64,000 nucleotides of DNA from Euzebyales bacterium. Lineage in GTDB: Bacteria > Actinomycetota > Nitriliruptoria > Euzebyales > JAHELV01. Under the pieces are notes generated by a model. It saw only the letters and a list, made by a program, of their open reading frames with translations, searched no databases and had not been told where the DNA came from. Shown one piece after another: positions 1 through 11,436 of this stretch. The translations under genes were made by a program, and so were the position numbers. Numbering within the stretch: the first letter of the stretch is position 1; the number at the start of each line of letters is the position of its first letter. The stretch is from assembly GCA_036374135.1 (NCBI GenBank), contig DASUUK010000035.1, positions 1 through 64,000 on the forward strand, in the 5' to 3' direction.

Positions 1-272
1 CCGTCCTCGATGCGGTTCTTGGCCGAGTCGGCCGTCCACTCCAGATACAGGATGTCGTCTTCGAACACGACCTTCGGCAGTTCCCACGAGGCATCCGGCA
101 CGGTGTCGATCAACTCCACGAACGCCGCACGTACACCGTCGAGGCCACGCCGGACGGTCCCATTGCCGATGAAGAGCGCGTCGTCGGTGTAGTCCTCGAC
201 GATGGCGTCGATGTCCTGGGCTCCGAGGGCCTCCACGTGGTGCTGGAACGTCTCCTGCGGGGTGCGTGCCAT
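1..272 (-). CDS. SnoaL-like / NTF2-fold protein, partial
   Basis: Only the first 90 codons are in the window; the gene runs off the left edge. The start at 272 is preceded by a good ribosome binding site (AGGAGG, about 278-284). The visible part begins MARTPQETFQHHVEAL and continues with an acidic segment (EDYTDDALFIG) and an aromatic, acidic strand (DDILYLEWTADS), the usual layout of SnoaL/NTF2-like single-domain proteins of 110-140 residues. These proteins are small cone-shaped dimers that act as polyketide cyclases, isomerases or binding proteins, so no reaction can be assigned. It follows the alcohol dehydrogenase on the same strand with a gap of about 90 bp and is probably the last visible member of that operon. 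Confidence 0.75.
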   Translation of the reverse strand, partial: MARTPQETFQHHVEALGAQDIDAIVEDYTDDALFIGNGTVRRGLDGVRAAFVELIDTVPDASWELPKVVFEDDILYLEWTADSAKNRIED

Positions 273-363
273 GCCCGATCCTCCTTCGTGGCACCCACCG
301 ATGTGGCGGAGCGCCGGTTGTCTGTCGCTGCGGTGGCCGCTTCAGGCGGACCGGCGCGGGATG

Positions 364-1395
364 TCAGCTCTCCGGGACGAGGATGCCCCGGCCCTGCAGG
401 CGGCCCTGTTCGAGGTCGTCCATGGCGTCGTTGACGGCATCGAGCGGATATGTGCGCGTGTGGAGCGTGACCTTGCCGCCGGCGGCCAGTGCCATGAGCT
501 CCGCGAGCTCGTTGTAGGAGCCGACGAGGTTGCCGATGATGTTCCGCTCGGTGGAGATGATGTCAATGGTCGGCACGTTGACCGCCCCGCCGTATCCGAT
601 GACGTAGTGCGAGCCAGCGCGCCGCGTCATCGTCCAGGCGTCGGCCTCCGCGCCGCGCTCGCCGACGAAGTCGAAGACGACCTCAGCGCCCTGCCCACCG
701 GTCAGCTCCATCACCTCATCGACGTGGGAGCCGTCGGCAAGCACCGTGTGCTCGGCGCCTGTCGACCGGGCCAGGTCAAGCGCCGCGTCGGAGGCATCCA
801 CCACGATGATCTCGGCAGAAGTCAGGGCCACCAGCGACTGGATGCCGATGTGCCCGAGACCCCCGGCGCCGATCACGACCGCTCGCGCGCCGGGAGGCAG
901 CAGCGGTACGGCCTTCTTGACGGCGTGGTATGCGGTGAGACCGGCATCGGCGAGCGCTGCGATGTCTGCCGGCTGGAGCGACGGGTCGATCTTGACCGTG
1001 GAGCGCGCACCGGTCAGCAGGTATTCCGCCATGCCGCCGTCGGTGTCGATCCCGGGGAACGCGCTGTGCTCGCAGTGCACATCGTCACCGTCCCGGCACG
1101 CGCGGCACAGCCCGCAGGTGACGAGGGGATGGAGGATGACGGTGTCGCCCGGTGCCACGTTGGTCACCGCCGAGCCGACCTCCTCGACCCATCCGGCGTT
1201 CTCGTGGCCGATCGTGTAGGGCAGCTTGACTCCGGACTTCTCGGCCCACTGCCCTTCATAGATGTGGAGGTCGGTCCGACACAGCCCGGCACCGCCGATC
1301 TTGACGATGACGTCGTGCGGTCCTGAGATCGCCGGCTCGGGCACGTCCTCGACGACCGGTCGCTGTTCGTACTCGTGGAGACGGACGGCCTTCAT
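364..1395 (-). CDS. Zinc-dependent NAD(P) alcohol dehydrogenase
   Basis: A 343-residue medium-chain dehydrogenase/reductase. Catalytic zinc ligands are visible at Cys39 and in GHE (His64); the structural zinc site is the four-cysteine lobe CGLCRACRDGDDVHC (Cys94, 97, 100, 108); the Rossmann motif is VIGAGGLGHIG near residue 175. It should oxidise an alcohol to an aldehyde or ketone (or the reverse) in the cytosol. The ATG at 1395 shares one base with the upstream TGA; a GTG three bases earlier is also possible, and MKAVRL is the family-typical start. It is translationally coupled to the recombinase-like gene. In related actinobacterial clusters a dehydrogenase of this type oxidises the alcohol made by a di-iron monooxygenase; that role is an inference here because no monooxygenase is in view. 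Confidence 0.9.
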   Translation of the reverse strand: MKAVRLHEYEQRPVVEDVPEPAISGPHDVIVKIGGAGLCRTDLHIYEGQWAEKSGVKLPYTIGHENAGWVEEVGSAVTNVAPGDTVILHPLVTCGLCRACRDGDDVHCEHSAFPGIDTDGGMAEYLLTGARSTVKIDPSLQPADIAALADAGLTAYHAVKKAVPLLPPGARAVVIGAGGLGHIGIQSLVALTSAEIIVVDASDAALDLARSTGAEHTVLADGSHVDEVMELTGGQGAEVVFDFVGERGAEADAWTMTRRAGSHYVIGYGGAVNVPTIDIISTERNIIGNLVGSYNELAELMALAAGGKVTLHTRTYPLDAVNDAMDDLEQGRLQGRGILVPES

Positions 1396-2255
1396 CACTG
1401 CTCCGTTTCGCTCGCGGCGGCTCGTTGCATGAAGCGTTCACCCGGCATACCCCACGTGCGGAAGAACTCGCCGGTCGTCCGGCACAGGTCGACGTTGAGA
1501 CGGTTGCCGGCGCGGATCAGATCGTGCGCCCGTCGCCGGGCCGACGTCACCGCATCACGTGTAGCCGGGCGACCGTCCGCCGTTGCGATCAACGGGGCTT
1601 CGGGTCCGACGTCCATCCCCTCGCGGCGACGGCGGGCGACCTCGTCGATCACCGCCTGGCGCGCGGCGAATGACAGGAACGTCACACGCTCGGCGACGCG
1701 ACCCCGCCGCTGGTCGAAGCGCACGGCCAGCGGCTCCGCCTCGAGATCGGGGATGACGTCGCCGTCCGTGTCGAGGACGCCCAGGTCCCCGAGCCGGACC
1801 CGCAGCAGTTCGGCGAGGTACAGGCCCGTGCCGATGAGGCCGAGGAGCACGAGCCGATCGCGTGTGCTGCCGGACGCGATCGGCTGCGGCGTCCCCCGAG
1901 CTGGCAATGGTCGCCACGCAACGTCCACGCCGTTGAGGCGGAACCACACCTTCGGGCCCATCGCCAACCCTGCGACGGCGACATCGGTCTGTCCGTCCAG
2001 GGCGCGGGACAGCGCCAGGAGTTGCGCTTCCGCGACGCCGGGATTGGCCTGCGCGGTCGCGGCCAGCGCCTCGAGGTCGTCGACCCCCGTCAGCGTGGCG
2101 AACCGATCGAGTGCCGGCACCAACGTCCGGATCCACGAGGGTTCACGACAGCGTCGTTCGAGCACGTCGACCATGCGTGCCACGCTCGGCAGCTCCAGCA
2201 GCGCTGCCTCGCGGCGCCCAGCGAGTGGCGTCCAGGCACGGGTCGCCACACTCAT
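1395..2255 (-). CDS. Tyrosine-recombinase-like protein lacking catalytic residues
   Basis: A 286-residue protein with the two-domain outline of a tyrosine recombinase: a helical N-terminal half and a C-terminal half with RDRLVLLGLIGTGLYLAELL (residues 132-151), normally TGLRxxEL. The first catalytic Arg is Tyr146, the HxxR box has become DLCR (256-259), and the protein stops at residue 286 before any nucleophilic Tyr. It therefore should not cut DNA. The start at 2255 overlaps the DUF59 gene's stop by four bases, and its own stop overlaps the dehydrogenase start, so it is a fixed operon member, not a mobile-element integrase. A scaffold, regulatory or DNA-binding role in this operon is possible but unproven. 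Longer in-frame starts upstream exist, but they lie inside the DUF59 gene and are unlikely. Confidence 0.75.
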   Translation of the reverse strand: MSVATRAWTPLAGRREAALLELPSVARMVDVLERRCREPSWIRTLVPALDRFATLTGVDDLEALAATAQANPGVAEAQLLALSRALDGQTDVAVAGLAMGPKVWFRLNGVDVAWRPLPARGTPQPIASGSTRDRLVLLGLIGTGLYLAELLRVRLGDLGVLDTDGDVIPDLEAEPLAVRFDQRRGRVAERVTFLSFAARQAVIDEVARRRREGMDVGPEAPLIATADGRPATRDAVTSARRRAHDLIRAGNRLNVDLCRTTGEFFRTWGMPGERFMQRAAASETEQ

Positions 2256-2590
2256 CGGCGCATCAGTCCGCGCGTCAGAGCTGAGCGATCCCCGTGGTTC
2301 ATCAACTCGTGCAGTGCGTCCGCCATGAAGTGATCCTGGAGCACCACTTCCACCGACGCGACGCCCGGGACCTTGGACACGCGACGGCGGATCTCCTGCC
2401 CGATCGCGCCGGCGAACTTCGCGGGGCACAGCGGAGATGTGAGGTGGAAGTGGACCGTGACATCGCCCCCGTCGACGACGACCTCGTCGAGCAGATCCAT
2501 GTCGGCGAGCGACATCCGGATCTCCGGGTCCTTCACCGAACCCGCAACTGCGCGGATGCGGTCGAGGTCGATCGGGGCGCCGTTGCTCAT
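2252..2590 (-). CDS. DUF59 / MIP18-family iron-sulfur assembly-type protein
   Basis: A 112-residue protein of the DUF59 (MIP18/SufT-like) family, with the family's early KDPEI motif (residues 20-24) and the LTSPLCPA segment holding the single conserved cysteine. Relatives help mature iron-sulfur or other metalloproteins; in monooxygenase gene clusters such a protein sits beside the amidohydrolase. Both ends overlap neighbours by four bases (ATGA), which means tight translational coupling. The likely job here is maturation of a metalloenzyme encoded by the same pathway, but the target is not in the window. Confidence 0.87.
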   Translation of the reverse strand: MSNGAPIDLDRIRAVAGSVKDPEIRMSLADMDLLDEVVVDGGDVTVHFHLTSPLCPAKFAGAIGQEIRRRVSKVPGVASVEVVLQDHFMADALHELMNHGDRSALTRGLMRR

Positions 2591-3693
2591 CGTGACGTCG
2601 TGCCCGTCACCCCGGTATCGACCGCTGGGGGTTCCTCGCCTGGGACGGACGTCGGCCGCACGGCCCGCCCCCCGACGTACTCGGTCCGCCGCTGGGCGAA
2701 CTCGTCATCGGCGATCGCGGCGAGCTTGGCCTCGACGTCGATGTCGTACAGGCGCGCGATGTTTCCGCCGACGATCTTCTGCTTGATCTCGGGTGTCAGG
2801 TCGACCCCGTACTCCTCCTTGAGGTCCTCGGGCAACTCGAAGTTCATCAAGTCGTCGAGCTGCCAGTGGGGGTACCAGATGGGGAAGTCGGTGCCGTAGG
2901 TGATGCGGTCCTCGCCGAGCCAGAACAGCAGGTTCGCCATGACGTCCGCGAACCACCGGGGCCGGTTGTGGATGAACGCCAACACGACCGCAAGCCCCGC
3001 GTACACGTTGGGGCAGCGTGCCGCCAGCCAGCAGAAGTCGTCGACGCGCGGCGCGCCGCAGTGGTCGATGATGAAGTTGAGTTCCGGGTACAGCCAGGCC
3101 GGCTCGTCGATGTCGCGCACGTCGAACTTCGCCAGCGACAGTGGCTCGACTGCGGGACCTTTGTGGAAGAACATGTTCCGCACACCGAGTTCGAGGCATT
3201 TCTCGTAGAGCGGGTAGACCATCGGGTCGTTGGCCGACCATCCGCGCGACTCGCCCCGCCACTCGGCCGTGTACCACTTGAAGCCCTGCATGCCGAGCTC
3301 GGTGATCTGGTACTCCACCTGCTCGAGGGCGTCGGGGGCGCGCGGATCGACGCCGCCGAGCGGGATGATCCGCTCCGGCGCCCGCGCCGCCAGTTCAGCG
3401 TTGCGCTCAGGGTTGACGAACCCGGTGTGGTAGAAGTCCATCAGGACCTGCGTCGACAGGATTGACATGTCGGCCTCGCCGCGGACGAAGACCTCCTCCA
3501 GGTACCAGTCGGGGTCGACCTTGCGGAAGACCGTGTCGTAGTCCATCTTCCAGCGCTCGTCCGGCGGATTGAAGCCGTTGTGGAACGCGTAGAACGTTTC
3601 GATGAAGGCCTCACCGAAGCGGTTCTTCGTGTTCTCGGGGCTGGCGTCCCAGTAGCCCGTGTGCGCGTCGAGAACGAATGAGCCATCCCTCAT
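2587..3693 (-). CDS. Amidohydrolase-2 family protein of monooxygenase-cluster type
   Basis: A 368-residue TIM-barrel protein of the amidohydrolase_2 family. Visible motifs are LDAHTGYWDAS near the N-terminus, GFKWYTAEWRGESRGW in the middle, FFHKGP, IDHCGAP and ITYGTDFPIWYPHW. The usual HxH metal pair is HxG here; from memory, the homologue beside actinobacterial propane/acetone-type monooxygenases also lacks the second His, so the metal site of this subfamily differs from classical members. The start at 3693 is chosen for its GGAGG site and family N-terminus; the frame stays open to 4038, but that extension is low-complexity and unsupported. It is the first gene of the leftward operon and overlaps the DUF59 gene by four bases. 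Its substrate is unknown. Confidence 0.85.
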   Translation of the reverse strand: MRDGSFVLDAHTGYWDASPENTKNRFGEAFIETFYAFHNGFNPPDERWKMDYDTVFRKVDPDWYLEEVFVRGEADMSILSTQVLMDFYHTGFVNPERNAELAARAPERIIPLGGVDPRAPDALEQVEYQITELGMQGFKWYTAEWRGESRGWSANDPMVYPLYEKCLELGVRNMFFHKGPAVEPLSLAKFDVRDIDEPAWLYPELNFIIDHCGAPRVDDFCWLAARCPNVYAGLAVVLAFIHNRPRWFADVMANLLFWLGEDRITYGTDFPIWYPHWQLDDLMNFELPEDLKEEYGVDLTPEIKQKIVGGNIARLYDIDVEAKLAAIADDEFAQRRTEYVGGRAVRPTSVPGEEPPAVDTGVTGTTSR

Positions 3694-4159
3694 GGCCGGC
3701 CTCCGCGATCCGAACGGGTTCCCCCGCGGCCGCCCTCGACCACCAACGTGTTCGAAGAGCGGTCTCCGTCGATCGTCACGTCGGTGGCCGAACGTGTCAA
3801 CAGACAATCCGGGACGCCTGGAGGAGGAGTCGATCGCTTGGGAGTCGGTGTGCTCCGAGCATGCCGTTGCCAGGCTGCCGTCGCGCTGCAACGACGCCCC
3901 ACCAACCCCAGCTGTCCCTCGATCTGTGATCTTGGCGAGGTCGCCGTCGCCGGCATCACTGCGTCGGGACTGTACGAGCGCACCCGCCGTGGCGACACAT
4001 TCGCTACGGCTGCACCGCTCCCCCGCGCACCCGTGCAAGGAGTCATCACCGCCTGCCTATGGGCCGGTGGCGACAGTGCCGCCAGCCACGAGGCTGCGCT
4101 GGCGGTCCACGGCACTTCCGACGTGATGCCGTCGGCAAGTCCACATCACCGTTCCCCGC
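3694..4159. other. Intergenic region, no supported gene
   Basis: No frame here shows a recognisable domain or a start with a credible ribosome binding site. It must hold the promoter of the leftward amidohydrolase operon, though I see no clear -35/-10 pair. The right end may include decayed N-terminal sequence of the pseudogene that follows. Confidence 0.5.
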
Positions 4160-4443
4160 GGGCCCCGCGGCCGTCAGGACGGCGTCGTCATCCAAAGCCG
4201 CGGCCGCGGCGGGACCCTGCCGACCAGCCTCACGTACCGGAACGGGCTTCTCTACGTCCTGAGCGACGGCGTGCCGGACAACATCAGCGGGTTCACCGTC
4301 GACGGTGGCAAGATGCAGCCGCCGTCCGACTCGACGCGTCCCTTGAGCGCCGACTCAACGTCCTTGAAGCGGACGGATCGCTGTCGCCGCTGCCCTTCCT
4401 GATCGCCACACCGGCTGGCCTGGCCGGTCTCGCCGCCTATTAG
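4160..4443 (+). pseudogene. Remnant of a secreted lactonase-like beta-propeller protein
   Basis: Two blocks match the same protein type in different frames. From about 4175 one frame reads QDGVVIQSRGRGGTLPTSLT, then YRNGLLYVLSDGVPDN and ISGFTVDGG, which is the early blade of YncE/6-phosphogluconolactonase-like propellers, ending near 4350. The adjacent block in another frame, NVLEADGSLSPLP followed by TPAGLAGLAAY and a stop at 4443, matches the extreme C-terminus of the same family. Roughly 200 or more residues between the blocks are missing and the frame changes at the join, so this is a deletion remnant. The N-terminus and signal peptide cannot be found. Confidence 0.6.
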
Positions 4444-4586
4444 GACCGCACCAGCTGGCGGGGTCGGTCCTCAAGGCAACGGCCCCGCCGCCCGGTTTCC
4501 CGTCCCCTGCGGGAGCCTTCTTCGACACGCCCTTGACTCTGTTCGTGGAAGTGAGAGGTTCGAGGGAGCGAGGGAAGGAGGTTGCC

Positions 4587-5597
4587 ATGAAGGCAGCCGT
4601 TGCTCATGAACTCGGTGGGCCCCTGATGATCGAGGACGTGCCACAGCCCGAGCCCGGCCGTGGCGAGGTGGTTGTGCAGATCGAAGCATCGGGTCTCTGC
4701 CATACCGATATCCACGCGGTCCACGGGGACTGGCCAGTCAAGCCGAAGCTCCCGCTCATTCCGGGGCATGAAGGGGTCGGACGGGTCGTGGCCCTGGGCG
4801 AAGGCGTCGAACATGTCTCGGAAGGCGACCGCGTCGCCCTGCCCTGGCTCGGATGGGCGTGCGGTCGGTGCGAGTACTGCGTGGACGGCTGGGAGACCCT
4901 GTGTCCGCGTCAGGAGAACACGGGCTACTCGATCCCGGGCTCCTACGCGGAATATGCAAAGGCACACGCGGATTTCGTCGGCCGCGTGCCCGAGGGCATC
5001 GATCCGTTCGACGCGGCGCCGTTGACCTGTGCGGGCGTGACGACGTACAAGGCCGTCAAGGTGTCGGGGGTTCGTCCCTCGAACATCATGGCGGTCTACG
5101 GCATCGGCGGACTCGGTCATCTGGCCCTGCAGTACGGTCAGGTTGCCGGCGCCTCCGTCGTGGCGGTGGACCTCGAGGACGCGAAGCTCGAGCTCGCCGC
5201 CGAACTCGGTGCGTCGGTCACCGTGAATGCCCGCGAGCAGGACCCCGTCGAGGTGATCAACGACCTCGGAGGAGCCCACGCCGCGATCTCCACCGCCGTC
5301 TCGCCGAAGGCGTTCGAGCAGGCCTACGGCTCACTTCGTCGCGGCGGAACGCTGGTCTTCGTGGCGTTACCGGCCGACAACGAGGTGCGCCTGCCGATCT
5401 TTGAGACGGTGCTCAACGGCACCGCCATCAAGGGCTCGATCGTGGGCACCCGCAACGACCTCGCCGAGGTCTTTCGCCTGCATGCGGCTGGCCGGACGCG
5501 CGTGGTCTCCGAACGTGCGGAGCTGGACCGCGTCAACGAGGAGTTCGCCGAGGTCCTGGCCGGCAAGGTCACGGGGCGCCGGGTGTTTGCGATCTGA
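4587..5597 (+). CDS. AdhP-type zinc alcohol dehydrogenase
   Basis: A 336-residue zinc-dependent alcohol dehydrogenase. It has the catalytic Cys in SGLCHTDIH, the GHEGVG motif, a four-cysteine structural zinc lobe (CGRCEYCVDGWETLC) and the nucleotide-binding motif VYGIGGLGHLALQ. The pattern is that of AdhP/propanol-preferring enzymes that interconvert primary alcohols and aldehydes with NAD. The start at 4587 has the strong site AAGGAGG at 4575-4581; in-frame starts further upstream add residues unlike the family. It stands alone between a pseudogene and a terminator-like hairpin, so it is probably a single-gene transcript. It is a different subgroup from the dehydrogenase at 364-1395. Confidence 0.92.
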   Translation: MKAAVAHELGGPLMIEDVPQPEPGRGEVVVQIEASGLCHTDIHAVHGDWPVKPKLPLIPGHEGVGRVVALGEGVEHVSEGDRVALPWLGWACGRCEYCVDGWETLCPRQENTGYSIPGSYAEYAKAHADFVGRVPEGIDPFDAAPLTCAGVTTYKAVKVSGVRPSNIMAVYGIGGLGHLALQYGQVAGASVVAVDLEDAKLELAAELGASVTVNAREQDPVEVINDLGGAHAAISTAVSPKAFEQAYGSLRRGGTLVFVALPADNEVRLPIFETVLNGTAIKGSIVGTRNDLAEVFRLHAAGRTRVVSERAELDRVNEEFAEVLAGKVTGRRVFAI

Positions 5598-9213: not shown

Positions 9214-11436
9214 GTGAGCTTCGAGACGCTGCGCTACGACCGTGCCCCGGATGGGATCGTCACCGTCACGTTCGACGACCCGGACCGGTCCGCCAACACC
9301 ATGCGCGCGGCATTCCTCGCGGACTACATCGCGCTCGCACGGCGACTGCGTGACGAGCGTGACCAGGTGACCGGCGTGATCTTCACGTCCGGCAAGCCGA
9401 CGTTCTTCGCCGGCGGCGACATGCGCGACATGATCCGCACGACGCCGCATGACGCCGCGGCGGTGACGGAGCGCCTGCGGGCGTTCAAGCTGGCGATGCG
9501 CACCGTCGAGACGCTCGGCGTGCCGGTCGTCGCCGCGATCAACGGGTCGGCGCTGGGCGGGGGCTGCGAGCTCGCGCTGGTCTCCCACCACCGGATCGCG
9601 CTCGACGAGCCGCGGCTGCGCATCGGTCAGCCGGAGGTCACGTTCGGTCTGTTGCCGGGCGCCGGCGGCTGCACGCGCATCCCGCGCCTGCTCGGCATCG
9701 TCGATGCGCTGACCCACGTGCTGCTGCGCGGCCAGCAGCATGACCCCGCCCGCGCGCTGGAACTGGGGTTGATCGACGCGCTGGCCACCGACACGGATGG
9801 ACTGCTGGATCAGGCTCGCGCGTGGATACACGCAAACCCCGACGCCGCGCAGCCGTGGGACCGTCCCGGCTACCGGATCCCTGGCGGCGGACCGGCGCAG
9901 CGGTCGTTCGCGACCGACGCGCCTGCGATCCCCGCGACGCTGCGCGCCGAGCTCTCTGGCGCCCACTACGACGCCCCGCACCACATCCTCGCGGCGGTCG
10001 TCGAGGGTGCCCAGGTGCCCGTCGACCGGGCGTTCGACATCGAGACCCGTTACCTCGTCGACCTGCTGTGCCACTCGGCGCAGGCCAGGAACATGATGCA
10101 GGCGTTCTTCTTCGACCTGCAGGCGGTCAACCGCGGCCGTTCGCGCCCCGAGGGCCACGACCGATGGTACGCGTCGAAGGTCGCGGTGCTGGGCGCCGGG
10201 ATGATGGGCTCGGCGATCGCGTACCAGTGTGCGAAGGTCGGCATCGAGGTCGTGCTGACCGACGTCGACGCCGAGGCGGCAGAGGCGGGCAAGGGCCACA
10301 GCAGCAGGCTCGTCGCACGTGACGTCGAGCGCGGCCGCATCGATCAGGACCGCGCCGCCGCGCTGCTCGCGCACATCACGCCGACAACGGACGCCGCAGA
10401 CCTGGCGGGCTGCGACCTCGTGATCGAGGCCGTGTTCGAGTCCACCGAGCTCAAGCACCGGGTCTTCGGGGAGGTCGAACCGTGCGTCGCCGACGACGCG
10501 CTGCTGTGCTCGAACACATCGACGATCCCGATCACCACGCTGGCAGAGGGCGTGACCCGCCCGGACGACTTCGTCGGCCTGCACTTCTTCTCGCCGGTCG
10601 ACCGGATGCCGTTGGTAGAGATCATCCGTGGCGCCGCCACGTCGGACGCAGCGCTGGCGAGGGCGTTCGACGTCGTCCTCCAACTGCGCAAGACCCCGAT
10701 CGTCGTCAACGACTCGCGTGGCTTCTTCACCAGCAGAGTGATCGGCACGTTCCTCAACGAGGCGGTCGCCGCGCTCGGCGAAGGTGTGCATCCGGTAATG
10801 ATCGAACGGGCCGGACTCGCGGCCGGGTACCCGGCGCCGCCGCTGCAGCTGATGGACGAGCTGACCCTCACGCTGCCGCGCCGCATCCGCAGGGAGACGC
10901 AGGCGGCGGCCGCGGCAACCGGCGAGCCGGTGCCGACGCACCCCGCGGACGCGATCGTGGACCGGATCATCGACGAGTTCGGACGCGAGGGCCGGGCCGC
11001 CGGCGCGGGCTTCTACGACTACGGCGCCGACGGCGCCCGGATCGGGCTGTGGCACGGTCTGGTCGACCACTTCACCGACGATGCCGCGACCCACATCCAT
11101 CCCGGCGACGACGACCTGCTGGTCGATCTGCAGGAACGGATGCTGTTCGCCGAGGCCATCGAGACCGTCCGATGCCTCGACGAAGGCGTGATCACCAGCT
11201 TCCCCGACGCCAACATCGGGTCACTGTTCGGCATCGGCTTCCCACGCTGGACCGGCGGCGTCGCCCAGTACATCGACCAGTATCCGGGCGGCACCACCGG
11301 ATTCGTCGCGCGCTGCAAGGTGCTCGCCGAGCGCTACGGCGACCGCTTCAGGCCGCCGGCGAGCCTGGCGGCGCGGGCCCAGGCCGGCGAGCCGCTACGT
11401 CCCGAGGACACACGGCTGCCCGCCGCGTCCGCGTGA
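9214..11436 (+). CDS. Fused enoyl-CoA hydratase / 3-hydroxyacyl-CoA dehydrogenase (FadB type)
   Basis: A 740-residue bifunctional enzyme. Residues about 1-190 form a crotonase domain (FAGGDMRDM and [12 protein letters not shown] make the oxyanion hole; [14 protein letters not shown] carries the expected catalytic acid). The Rossmann motif [16 protein letters not shown] is near 325, and [15 protein letters not shown] marks the dehydrogenase active-site region, followed by two C-terminal 3HCDH segments. It hydrates enoyl-CoA and oxidises the 3-hydroxyacyl-CoA with NAD. The start is GTG at 9214, five bases after the thiolase stop. Its 3' end nearly meets the oppositely directed LigA-like gene, with 11 bp between the stops. 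Confidence 0.94.

Follow-up and report, generated by a model that had tools for sequence, protein, structure and literature searches.

Clusters of prm/mim-type monooxygenases (SDIMOs), such as those of Aminobacter pAA02 (L001), Gemmobacter p2 (L006) and A. chiangmaiensis (Mim; PMC7176365), contain an amidohydrolase-fold protein (AMH), an adjoining DUF59 gene and a Zn-dependent alcohol dehydrogenase (ADH), with AMH preceding DUF59. The amidohydrolase-like protein of the Mim cluster accounted for 3.2% of the proteome of 2-HIBA-grown cells, a share comparable to those of the hydroxylase subunits (PMC7176365, Table 1). DUF59 proteins are described in PMC4498308 as known or suspected maturation factors, and the same paper states that the DUF59 protein PaaD is required for a di-iron epoxidase in vivo but not in vitro.

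We analyzed a window of 64,000 nucleotides (bases 1-64000 of the 125,971-base contig C35) from the draft genome G000, which comprises 115 contigs and is 96.3% complete. Homologous genes in the same order as in the prm/mim clusters form one minus-strand run here, with consecutive overlaps of 4, 4 and 1 bases. The first gene encodes AMH (2587..3693; PF04909, 1.8e-39, 136.7 bits against a cut-off of 26.4). It is followed, through an ATGA overlap, by a gene for a 112-aa DUF59 (FeS_assembly_P) protein (2252..2590; PF01883, 2.5e-14, 53.7 bits against a cut-off of 23.5) and, through a second ATGA overlap, by a gene for a degenerate, tyrosine-recombinase-like protein of 286 aa, P286 (1395..2255), which was recognized by structure search and profile relation. 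The last gene encodes ADH (364..1398; PF08240 and PF00107; start GTG at 1398 or ATG at 1395). All four genes are intact, and the names and tight coupling given in the initial annotation were borne out by the overlaps, read directly from the sequence, and by Pfam for AMH, DUF59 and ADH. Unlike the prm/mim clusters, the window has no visible hydroxylase, reductase, coupling protein or GroEL gene, and its DUF59 and recombinase-like parts are encoded by separate genes, the latter with an extra N-terminal domain. The DUF59 gene resembles paaD in being a dedicated member of what may be an oxidative catabolic operon; however, it comes after the gene of a PF04909 enzyme and is linked to a recombinase-like domain, whereas PaaD serves a di-iron epoxidase. 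A SnoaL_2-like gene (3..272, minus strand; PF12680, 4e-12) lies approximately 90 bases past ADH and is cut by the contig end; no such ORF is listed after ADH in the G099 locus (L119) described below, and it is thus not conserved there.

Monooxygenase genes and the setting of related loci

A tblastn search of the 64-kb window with the SDIMO parts of a congener (G001) matched only ADH and AMH, in agreement with the earlier observation that no hydroxylase lies upstream of AMH. Genome-wide, neither PF02332 nor two SDIMO large subunits gave a match in G000, with G001, from the same genus, as the positive control. Since no control had matched when G000 was scanned with PF02332 alone, that scan was uninformative and was repeated with positives: PF02332 matched none of the seven P286 carriers (G000, G099 and G418-G422), whereas G001 and the Thermomicrobium megaplasmid were positive. 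The SDIMO large subunit likewise gave no match in the P286 carriers. The initial annotation had recommended inspecting the sequence left of position 1, a sensible place to look because the SDIMO genes of G001 follow AMH-FeS-ADH downstream; since the window begins at contig base 1, this downstream side of the operon is absent from the assembly.

Among the best 80 AMH matches of our scan, 56 had an SDIMO alongside, 19 had none and 5 were P286 loci; two of the 19 SDIMO-free loci were cut by contig ends and still contained GroEL. When at least 6 kb was available on both sides, the numbers were 50, 8 and 5, respectively. The proposed tie of AMH and DUF59 to prm/mim-type clusters is therefore real for 56 of the 80 best relatives, and the genes may contribute to maturing the SDIMO at those loci. 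GroEL was found at 55 of these 56 SDIMO loci but at only 2 of the 19 SDIMO-free loci, whereas a long DUF59 protein was encoded at 56/56 and 17/19, respectively. The accessory genes thus fall into two groups: GroEL tracks the SDIMO, and DUF59, with the recombinase-like part, tracks AMH. Among 15 close AMH loci in the same class as that of the window, which is itself included, 14 had DUF59; none of five more distant PF04909 loci did.

SDIMO-free loci of Thermomicrobium, Thermoflexus, Chloroflexus, Bacillaceae and haloarchaea (L002, L062, L071, L065, L003 and L102) have the same AMH-DUF59-ADH set without an adjacent SDIMO; they differ from the window in encoding a single long DUF59 protein and an AMH that is 44-49% identical to ours. 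In T. roseum, an SDIMO lies approximately 370 kb from the AMH locus on the same megaplasmid. From 12 SDIMO-free loci we scanned 101 of 117 neighboring ORFs, omitting 16 that looked spurious and mostly overlapped others; among the families listed (25 shown), no partner recurred beyond AMH, ADH and DUF59.

Loci of the window's own type, with DUF59 and P286 split, were found in six other genomes. In G099, another genome of the phylum, AMH-DUF59-P286-ADH is intact, in mid-contig and flanked by unrelated genes, and AMH-DUF59-P286 is kept in five further genomes (L027-L031). In the freshwater genomes, ADH is not adjacent but approximately 2-7 kb away, and the L031 copy is truncated where its contig stops. 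Gene-by-gene reading of two of these loci, from Planktophila versatilis (L028) and Nanopelagicales (L027), revealed an upstream ABC importer of the sugar/polyol type with two ATPases, a feature that, like the distance of ADH, sets them apart from the window and from G099. The binding protein of this importer had no NCBIfam match and no homologue in G000, and the importer gave no definite pointer to the AMH substrate. A GroEL-like MimG/PrmG gene was absent from L027-L031 and was not seen around the G099 operon; in the window, the downstream side of the operon is cut off by the end of the contig. The module therefore exists in genomes in which no SDIMO was found, including a complete 1.3-Mb freshwater chromosome, which suggests that the "amidohydrolase" and "iron-sulfur assembly" genes of propane/acetone monooxygenase clusters have an independent function, one that could be tested without a monooxygenase.

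The amidohydrolase-fold enzyme and the role of the operon

The AlphaFold2 model of AMH was a TIM barrel (mean pLDDT, 89.1), in agreement with the fold search. The metal-site residues D8, H10, H176, H210 and D268 (numbered without the start Met) were conserved in 93 of 93 sequences from all contexts. K138 was considered as a special carboxylated lysine and dropped, as a Lys also occurs at this position in two other PF04909 proteins of G000; a third row (L143), in the wrong frame, was left out of this comparison. In the AMH tree, which came from a quick search and has long branches and an insecure root, the P286 rows formed a single clade (SH-aLRT, 98), in which the window sequence grouped with G099 and the freshwater genes. 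Its identity was 88% to the G099 AMH (over tree columns), 65-70% to L027-L031, 49% to L001 and 41% to G001; ADH was 82% identical to that of the G099 operon, 66% to that of the G001 SDIMO cluster and 54-56% to those of L027 and L028. SDIMO-linked AMHs were nested among SDIMO-free ones, and monooxygenase operons therefore probably took up an older, pre-existing AMH module.

We narrowly favor reading the operon as a catabolic module complete in itself, consisting of AMH, a DUF59/P286 maturation pair and ADH, and not as a stripped monooxygenase operon, because G099 carries these four genes by themselves, AMH-DUF59-P286 is retained in five further genomes and no SDIMO was found in any of the seven carriers. 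AMH would be a metal-dependent catabolic enzyme of the PF04909 family, a catalyst rather than a chaperone, which DUF59 and the recombinase-derived P286 would together mature or load with metal. ADH would make or use the small alcohol- or ketone-type metabolite of AMH, so that the two would act in series; a C3-type alcohol, ketone or ketol is our guess for the AMH substrate from the propane/acetone context. SDIMO operons would have recruited this AMH module and acquired GroEL to serve the monooxygenase. Of the three options in the initial annotation, service to another metalloenzyme thus came closest, with AMH itself as the best candidate since DUF59 follows it with or without a monooxygenase.

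A lost monooxygenase was another of these options, and a remnant of a prm/mim cluster whose hydroxylase genes were lost, or lie past the contig end, into which the operon runs, has parallels in the genus. In G001, AMH-FeS-ADH is followed by the hydroxylase, the reductase, the second subunit and GroEL, and in G002 the matching site is occupied by an AMH gene that lacks a large internal segment and by a defective DUF59 gene running into the ADH frame; SDIMO-linked clusters therefore do decay in this genus. However, the four window genes are intact and overlapping, their AMH belongs to the G099/freshwater lineage and not to that of G001, and the split DUF59/P286 form is absent from the G001 cluster. 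The PF02332 scan found an SDIMO in none of the seven P286 carriers, the complete Planktophila chromosome included, and the solitary G099 operon further weakens this explanation; in our sample, P286-type operons occurred only in SDIMO-free genomes. The loss is thus not supported for the window operon, and we regard a remnant as very unlikely.

It is also improbable that AMH is itself the "missing monooxygenase," namely an O2-activating dinuclear enzyme (ARO) of the AibH2/PtmU3/SfbO class. These enzymes share the PF04909 TIM barrel, DxH and two more likely ligands with AMH, the module occurs in several settings that lack an SDIMO, and the fold list included the ARO structure 8sm9 (VIA; Z 20.1) and DitZ 8uyr (Z 20.6), which is perhaps an ARO and perhaps not. 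Nevertheless, the uncharacterized 3irs (Z 28.1) and decarboxylases (Z up to 23.5) outscored them. AibH2 is liganded by D25, H27, H211, E265, D337 and H340 (PMC10401708); the AMH position D268+3, assigned by motif and not by structural superposition, is I or L in 93/93 sequences, and we marked the ARO reading down because this is where H340 would lie. In addition, 90% of AibH2-like genes are accompanied by a Rieske gene (PMC10401708), whereas Pfam identified no Rieske protein among the four operon genes, and no Rieske family with at least two members was among the families listed for the 101 scanned neighbors. A role of AMH, DUF59 and P286 as maturation factors for another, unlinked iron enzyme of the host would fit the maturation functions described in PMC4498308 and the company of GroEL in SDIMO loci; the lack of a further recurrent partner among the families listed for the 101 scanned neighbors and the retention of the AMH metal site in every context make it a doubtful alternative to a self-contained module.

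The DUF59 protein and P286

The window DUF59 protein matched the PaaD and SUF-associated models weakly, below their cut-offs. The conserved DUF59 Cys was present in the window protein (LTSPLCP) and in 85 of 85 long relatives, the full-length long forms retained from 93 DUF59 matches. P286 matched no Pfam family, and a sequence search of the PDB returned only chance-level rows, including a XerC-like one (E 0.85). Its N-terminal, core-binding part resembled tyrosine recombinases, which made up all 27 listed structure entries with Z of at least 5 (best, 8.8); past approximately residue 107, in the catalytic part, the model was poor. By profile, the C-terminal half was related to the tails of long DUF59 proteins, and those tails to Xer. 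A direct profile comparison of P286 with Xer was not significant (P 0.13 and 0.11), though in the expected register; the name "recombinase-like" thus stands as a remote relationship from structure and profiles, and not by the direct test.

The catalytic residues of tyrosine recombinases are not conserved. TGxR is absent from P286, where Y, H, N, D or T takes the place of Arg behind TGL/SGL in 7/7 rows, and the long DUF59 tails retained HxxRH in 0/85 and GxRxxE in 2/85; the 15/15 count for Xer is by construction because that set was chosen by its catalytic motifs. What looks like a degenerate recombinase-like domain appears to be shared by P286 and the C-terminal halves of the long DUF59 proteins of prm-like clusters; it contains an invariant Cys, located, by eye, near the place of the recombinase's second catalytic Arg. 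From these comparisons, P286 is probably a split-off, enlarged counterpart of the long-DUF59 C-terminal domain, and it looks like a former DNA recombinase that is now the partner of a metal-handling protein. More tentatively, a dead tyrosine recombinase domesticated with DUF59, fused in most lineages and split here, might constitute a new metallocofactor-insertion factor dedicated to a widespread class of PF04909 catabolic enzymes, later adopted by propane-type monooxygenase operons, in which the two invariant Cys would hold a metal or cluster for transfer. In the open-licence PMC papers found, the "amidohydrolase" and "iron-sulfur assembly" genes appear on cluster maps but are given no role, and we saw no description of a DUF59-recombinase fusion; if the proposal is true, the recombinase fold would gain a use outside DNA rearrangement.

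As a minor observation, PF20859 was matched by one of the seven P286 rows, at 0.0082.

Organization of the operon

The operon comprises four minus-strand genes, of which the first encodes a PF04909 amidohydrolase (AMH; 3693-2587), followed by genes for a DUF59 (PF01883) protein (2590-2252), a 286-residue recombinase-like protein (P286; 2255-1395) and a zinc alcohol dehydrogenase (ADH; 1398/1395-364). These genes are real, and successive pairs overlap by 4, 4 and 1 bases, in agreement with the linkage by 1-4 base overlaps reported in the initial annotation. A SnoaL_2-like gene follows ADH and is cut at position 3. Because the window occupies the initial 64 kb of contig C35 (125,971 bases; draft assembly of 3.98 Mb in 115 contigs, 96.3% complete), its left side, which is downstream of the operon, is a contig end. 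A second, AdhP-like Zn-ADH gene (337.1 bits; cut-off 344) lies divergently at 4578-5597 on the plus strand. The interval between (3694-4577) is without a convincing gene; by eye, a plus-strand frame at about 4130-4400 resembles a beta-propeller/lactonase remnant, and an 87-residue piece of it had no Pfam match.

Association with monooxygenase genes

The operon had been read as a monooxygenase-accessory operon without its monooxygenase. That observation is sound, but the operon is more aptly called a stand-alone module shared by monooxygenase operons. A genome search with PF02332 and two large subunits of soluble di-iron monooxygenases (SDIMOs) found no SDIMO in the window's genome; the congener G001 was positive with PF02332 and with one of the large subunits. 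The gene order in G001 is AMH, long DUF59 (with an extra C-terminal half), ADH, hydroxylase, 2Fe-2S reductase, second hydroxylase subunit and GroEL, so the absent genes could in principle have stood downstream in the window's genome. The matching place in a second congener, G002 (locus L110, 10148-12065), holds a decayed SDIMO-type locus, in which AMH has lost its middle through a large internal deletion and the broken DUF59 gene runs into the ADH frame; the corresponding stretch of the window's genome (contig C34, locus L107) gave no SDIMO match. In this genus SDIMO clusters do appear and disappear, but at a different locus and with a different AMH lineage from the window operon. L107 carries a second AMH type (9760-11257; 36% identical to the window AMH), with a short DUF59 gene before it and an MFS-like gene after it; in its metal site, Val replaces the first His and Glu the last Asp.

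Among the best 80 AMH relatives in genome contigs (more exist), 56 loci had an SDIMO, 19 did not and 5 were of the P286 type (50, 8 and 5 where at least 6 kb was available on both sides); two of the 19 (L044 and L047) are contig-cut SDIMO clusters still containing GroEL. In this set, GroEL was found in 55 of the 56 SDIMO loci, and long DUF59 in all 56 and in 17 of the 19 others, the exceptions being L089, where the contig ends 182 bases before AMH, and L094, where a weak DUF59 match (E 9e-5) adjoins AMH. Within the fetched stretches, a DUF59 gene accompanied 14 of 15 loci of the window's AMH class (E < 1e-39, the window's own locus and a second, more distant AMH type included) and none of five more distant PF04909 loci. 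DUF59 thus goes with AMH, and GroEL with SDIMO. In a quick tree of 95 rows, SDIMO rows were nested inside SDIMO-free rows, which suggests that the module predates its SDIMO association, within the limits that rooting, long branches and sampling set on such a tree.

On the Thermomicrobium roseum megaplasmid, SDIMO subunits (W01:899269-902548) lie approximately 370 kb from an AMH-DUF59-ADH module (L002). CobW-type metallochaperone families matched 2 of 101 neighbouring proteins scanned (L002, L003, L062, L065, L071, L080, L092, L098, L100, L102, L112 and L113).

The recombinase-like protein and its lineage

Of the module's parts, the most unusual is the recombinase-like partner of DUF59. In most relatives, DUF59 bears a C-terminal half roughly 120 residues long, across which the long DUF59 profile matched XerD weakly (E 0.008); against 15 Xer proteins, this half gave P 0.0019, a score that none of 150 column shuffles reached, and the reversed profile gave P 0.36. 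The C-terminal half of P286 in turn matched the long DUF59 tail (P 6.5e-5, equalled by none of 150 shuffles; 0.61 when reversed), in an alignment that superposes an invariant Cys (C258 in 7/7 P286 proteins; 84/85 long proteins). P286 compared directly with Xer gave no significant match (P 0.11). Only residues 14-107 or so of P286 are well modelled, and for that part all 27 listed fold matches with Z of at least 5 were tyrosine recombinases (best 8.8); Z values below 8-13 are common for helical parts, and the weight lies on the uniformity of the list. The description of P286 as recombinase-like was therefore right, resting on this N-terminal list and the C-terminal profile chain. Since tyrosine recombinase catalytic motifs are missing from P286 and from nearly all long DUF59 tails, P286 is very likely no working recombinase, judging from sequence, and is probably a separate form of the domain fused to DUF59 elsewhere.

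The closest full match to the operon is in G099, a genome of the same phylum and another family, where AMH, DUF59, P286 and ADH are contiguous and flanked on both sides by unrelated genes (identities: AMH 88% over tree columns, ADH 82%, P286 65%). AMH-DUF59-P286 is kept in five more loci, with AMH 65-70% identical to the window's: Planktophila versatilis, a Nanopelagicales MAG, an Actinobacteria MAG of Lake Pavin and two MAGs labelled Streptomycetaceae (one from a pond). Four of the five also have an ADH (54-56% identical) at the locus; the L031 copy runs off its contig. With the window's own genome this makes seven carriers, none of which has an SDIMO. The seven P286 rows form one clade in the tree (SH-aLRT 98), and the window operon is a lineage distinct from the SDIMO-type locus of G001 and G002. 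P286 is rare: a search of 396 genomes from the phylum at E 1e-3 gave matches in three, one of them weak and partial, and a search of 66 from the class gave one.

Gene-by-gene reading of the Nanopelagicales (L027) and P. versatilis (L028) loci showed a binding protein, two permeases and two ATPases preceding AMH-DUF59-P286; the nearest models for the L028 permeases and ATPases are sugar and glycerol-phosphate transporters. With ADH and a quinone-oxidoreductase-like gene in front, L028 (1851-12341) has ten genes on one strand, which may form a single uptake and degradation unit.

Metal site and possible function

The AlphaFold2 model of AMH is a confident TIM barrel (mean pLDDT 89.1). Its closest structural match is the uncharacterised 3irs (Z 28.1), ahead of family decarboxylases (Z to 23.5) and the amidohydrolase-type dinuclear oxygenase 8sm9 (Z 20.1). 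D8, H10, H176, H210 and D268 (numbered without the start Met) are present in 93/93 AMH sequences, whatever their context, and every one of them has I or L three residues past D268. In the literature on these oxygenases (PMC10401708, PMC7782822, PMC10811679), AibH2 is described as having a ligand His at this position (PMC10401708). The residues of the AMH site thus resemble those of mononuclear members, and AMH is unlikely to be a dinuclear oxygenase of the known kind.

Three features of the module are established: it occurs without SDIMO, its AMH, DUF59, recombinase-like and ADH parts are linked, and the AMH site is conserved. DUF59 and P286 might load metal into AMH or otherwise mature it, and ADH and AMH would act in series on a small alcohol or ketone. 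The maturation step would parallel that of PaaD, reported to be required by its epoxidase in vivo and dispensable in vitro (PMC4498308). In PMC9213486, AMH and DUF59 genes of SDIMO clusters are marked by annotation only. The amidohydrolase-like protein of the A. chiangmaiensis Mim cluster is reported at 3.2% of the proteome (PMC7176365), an abundance that would suit an enzyme better than a trace chaperone, although GroEL reaches 4.0% there.
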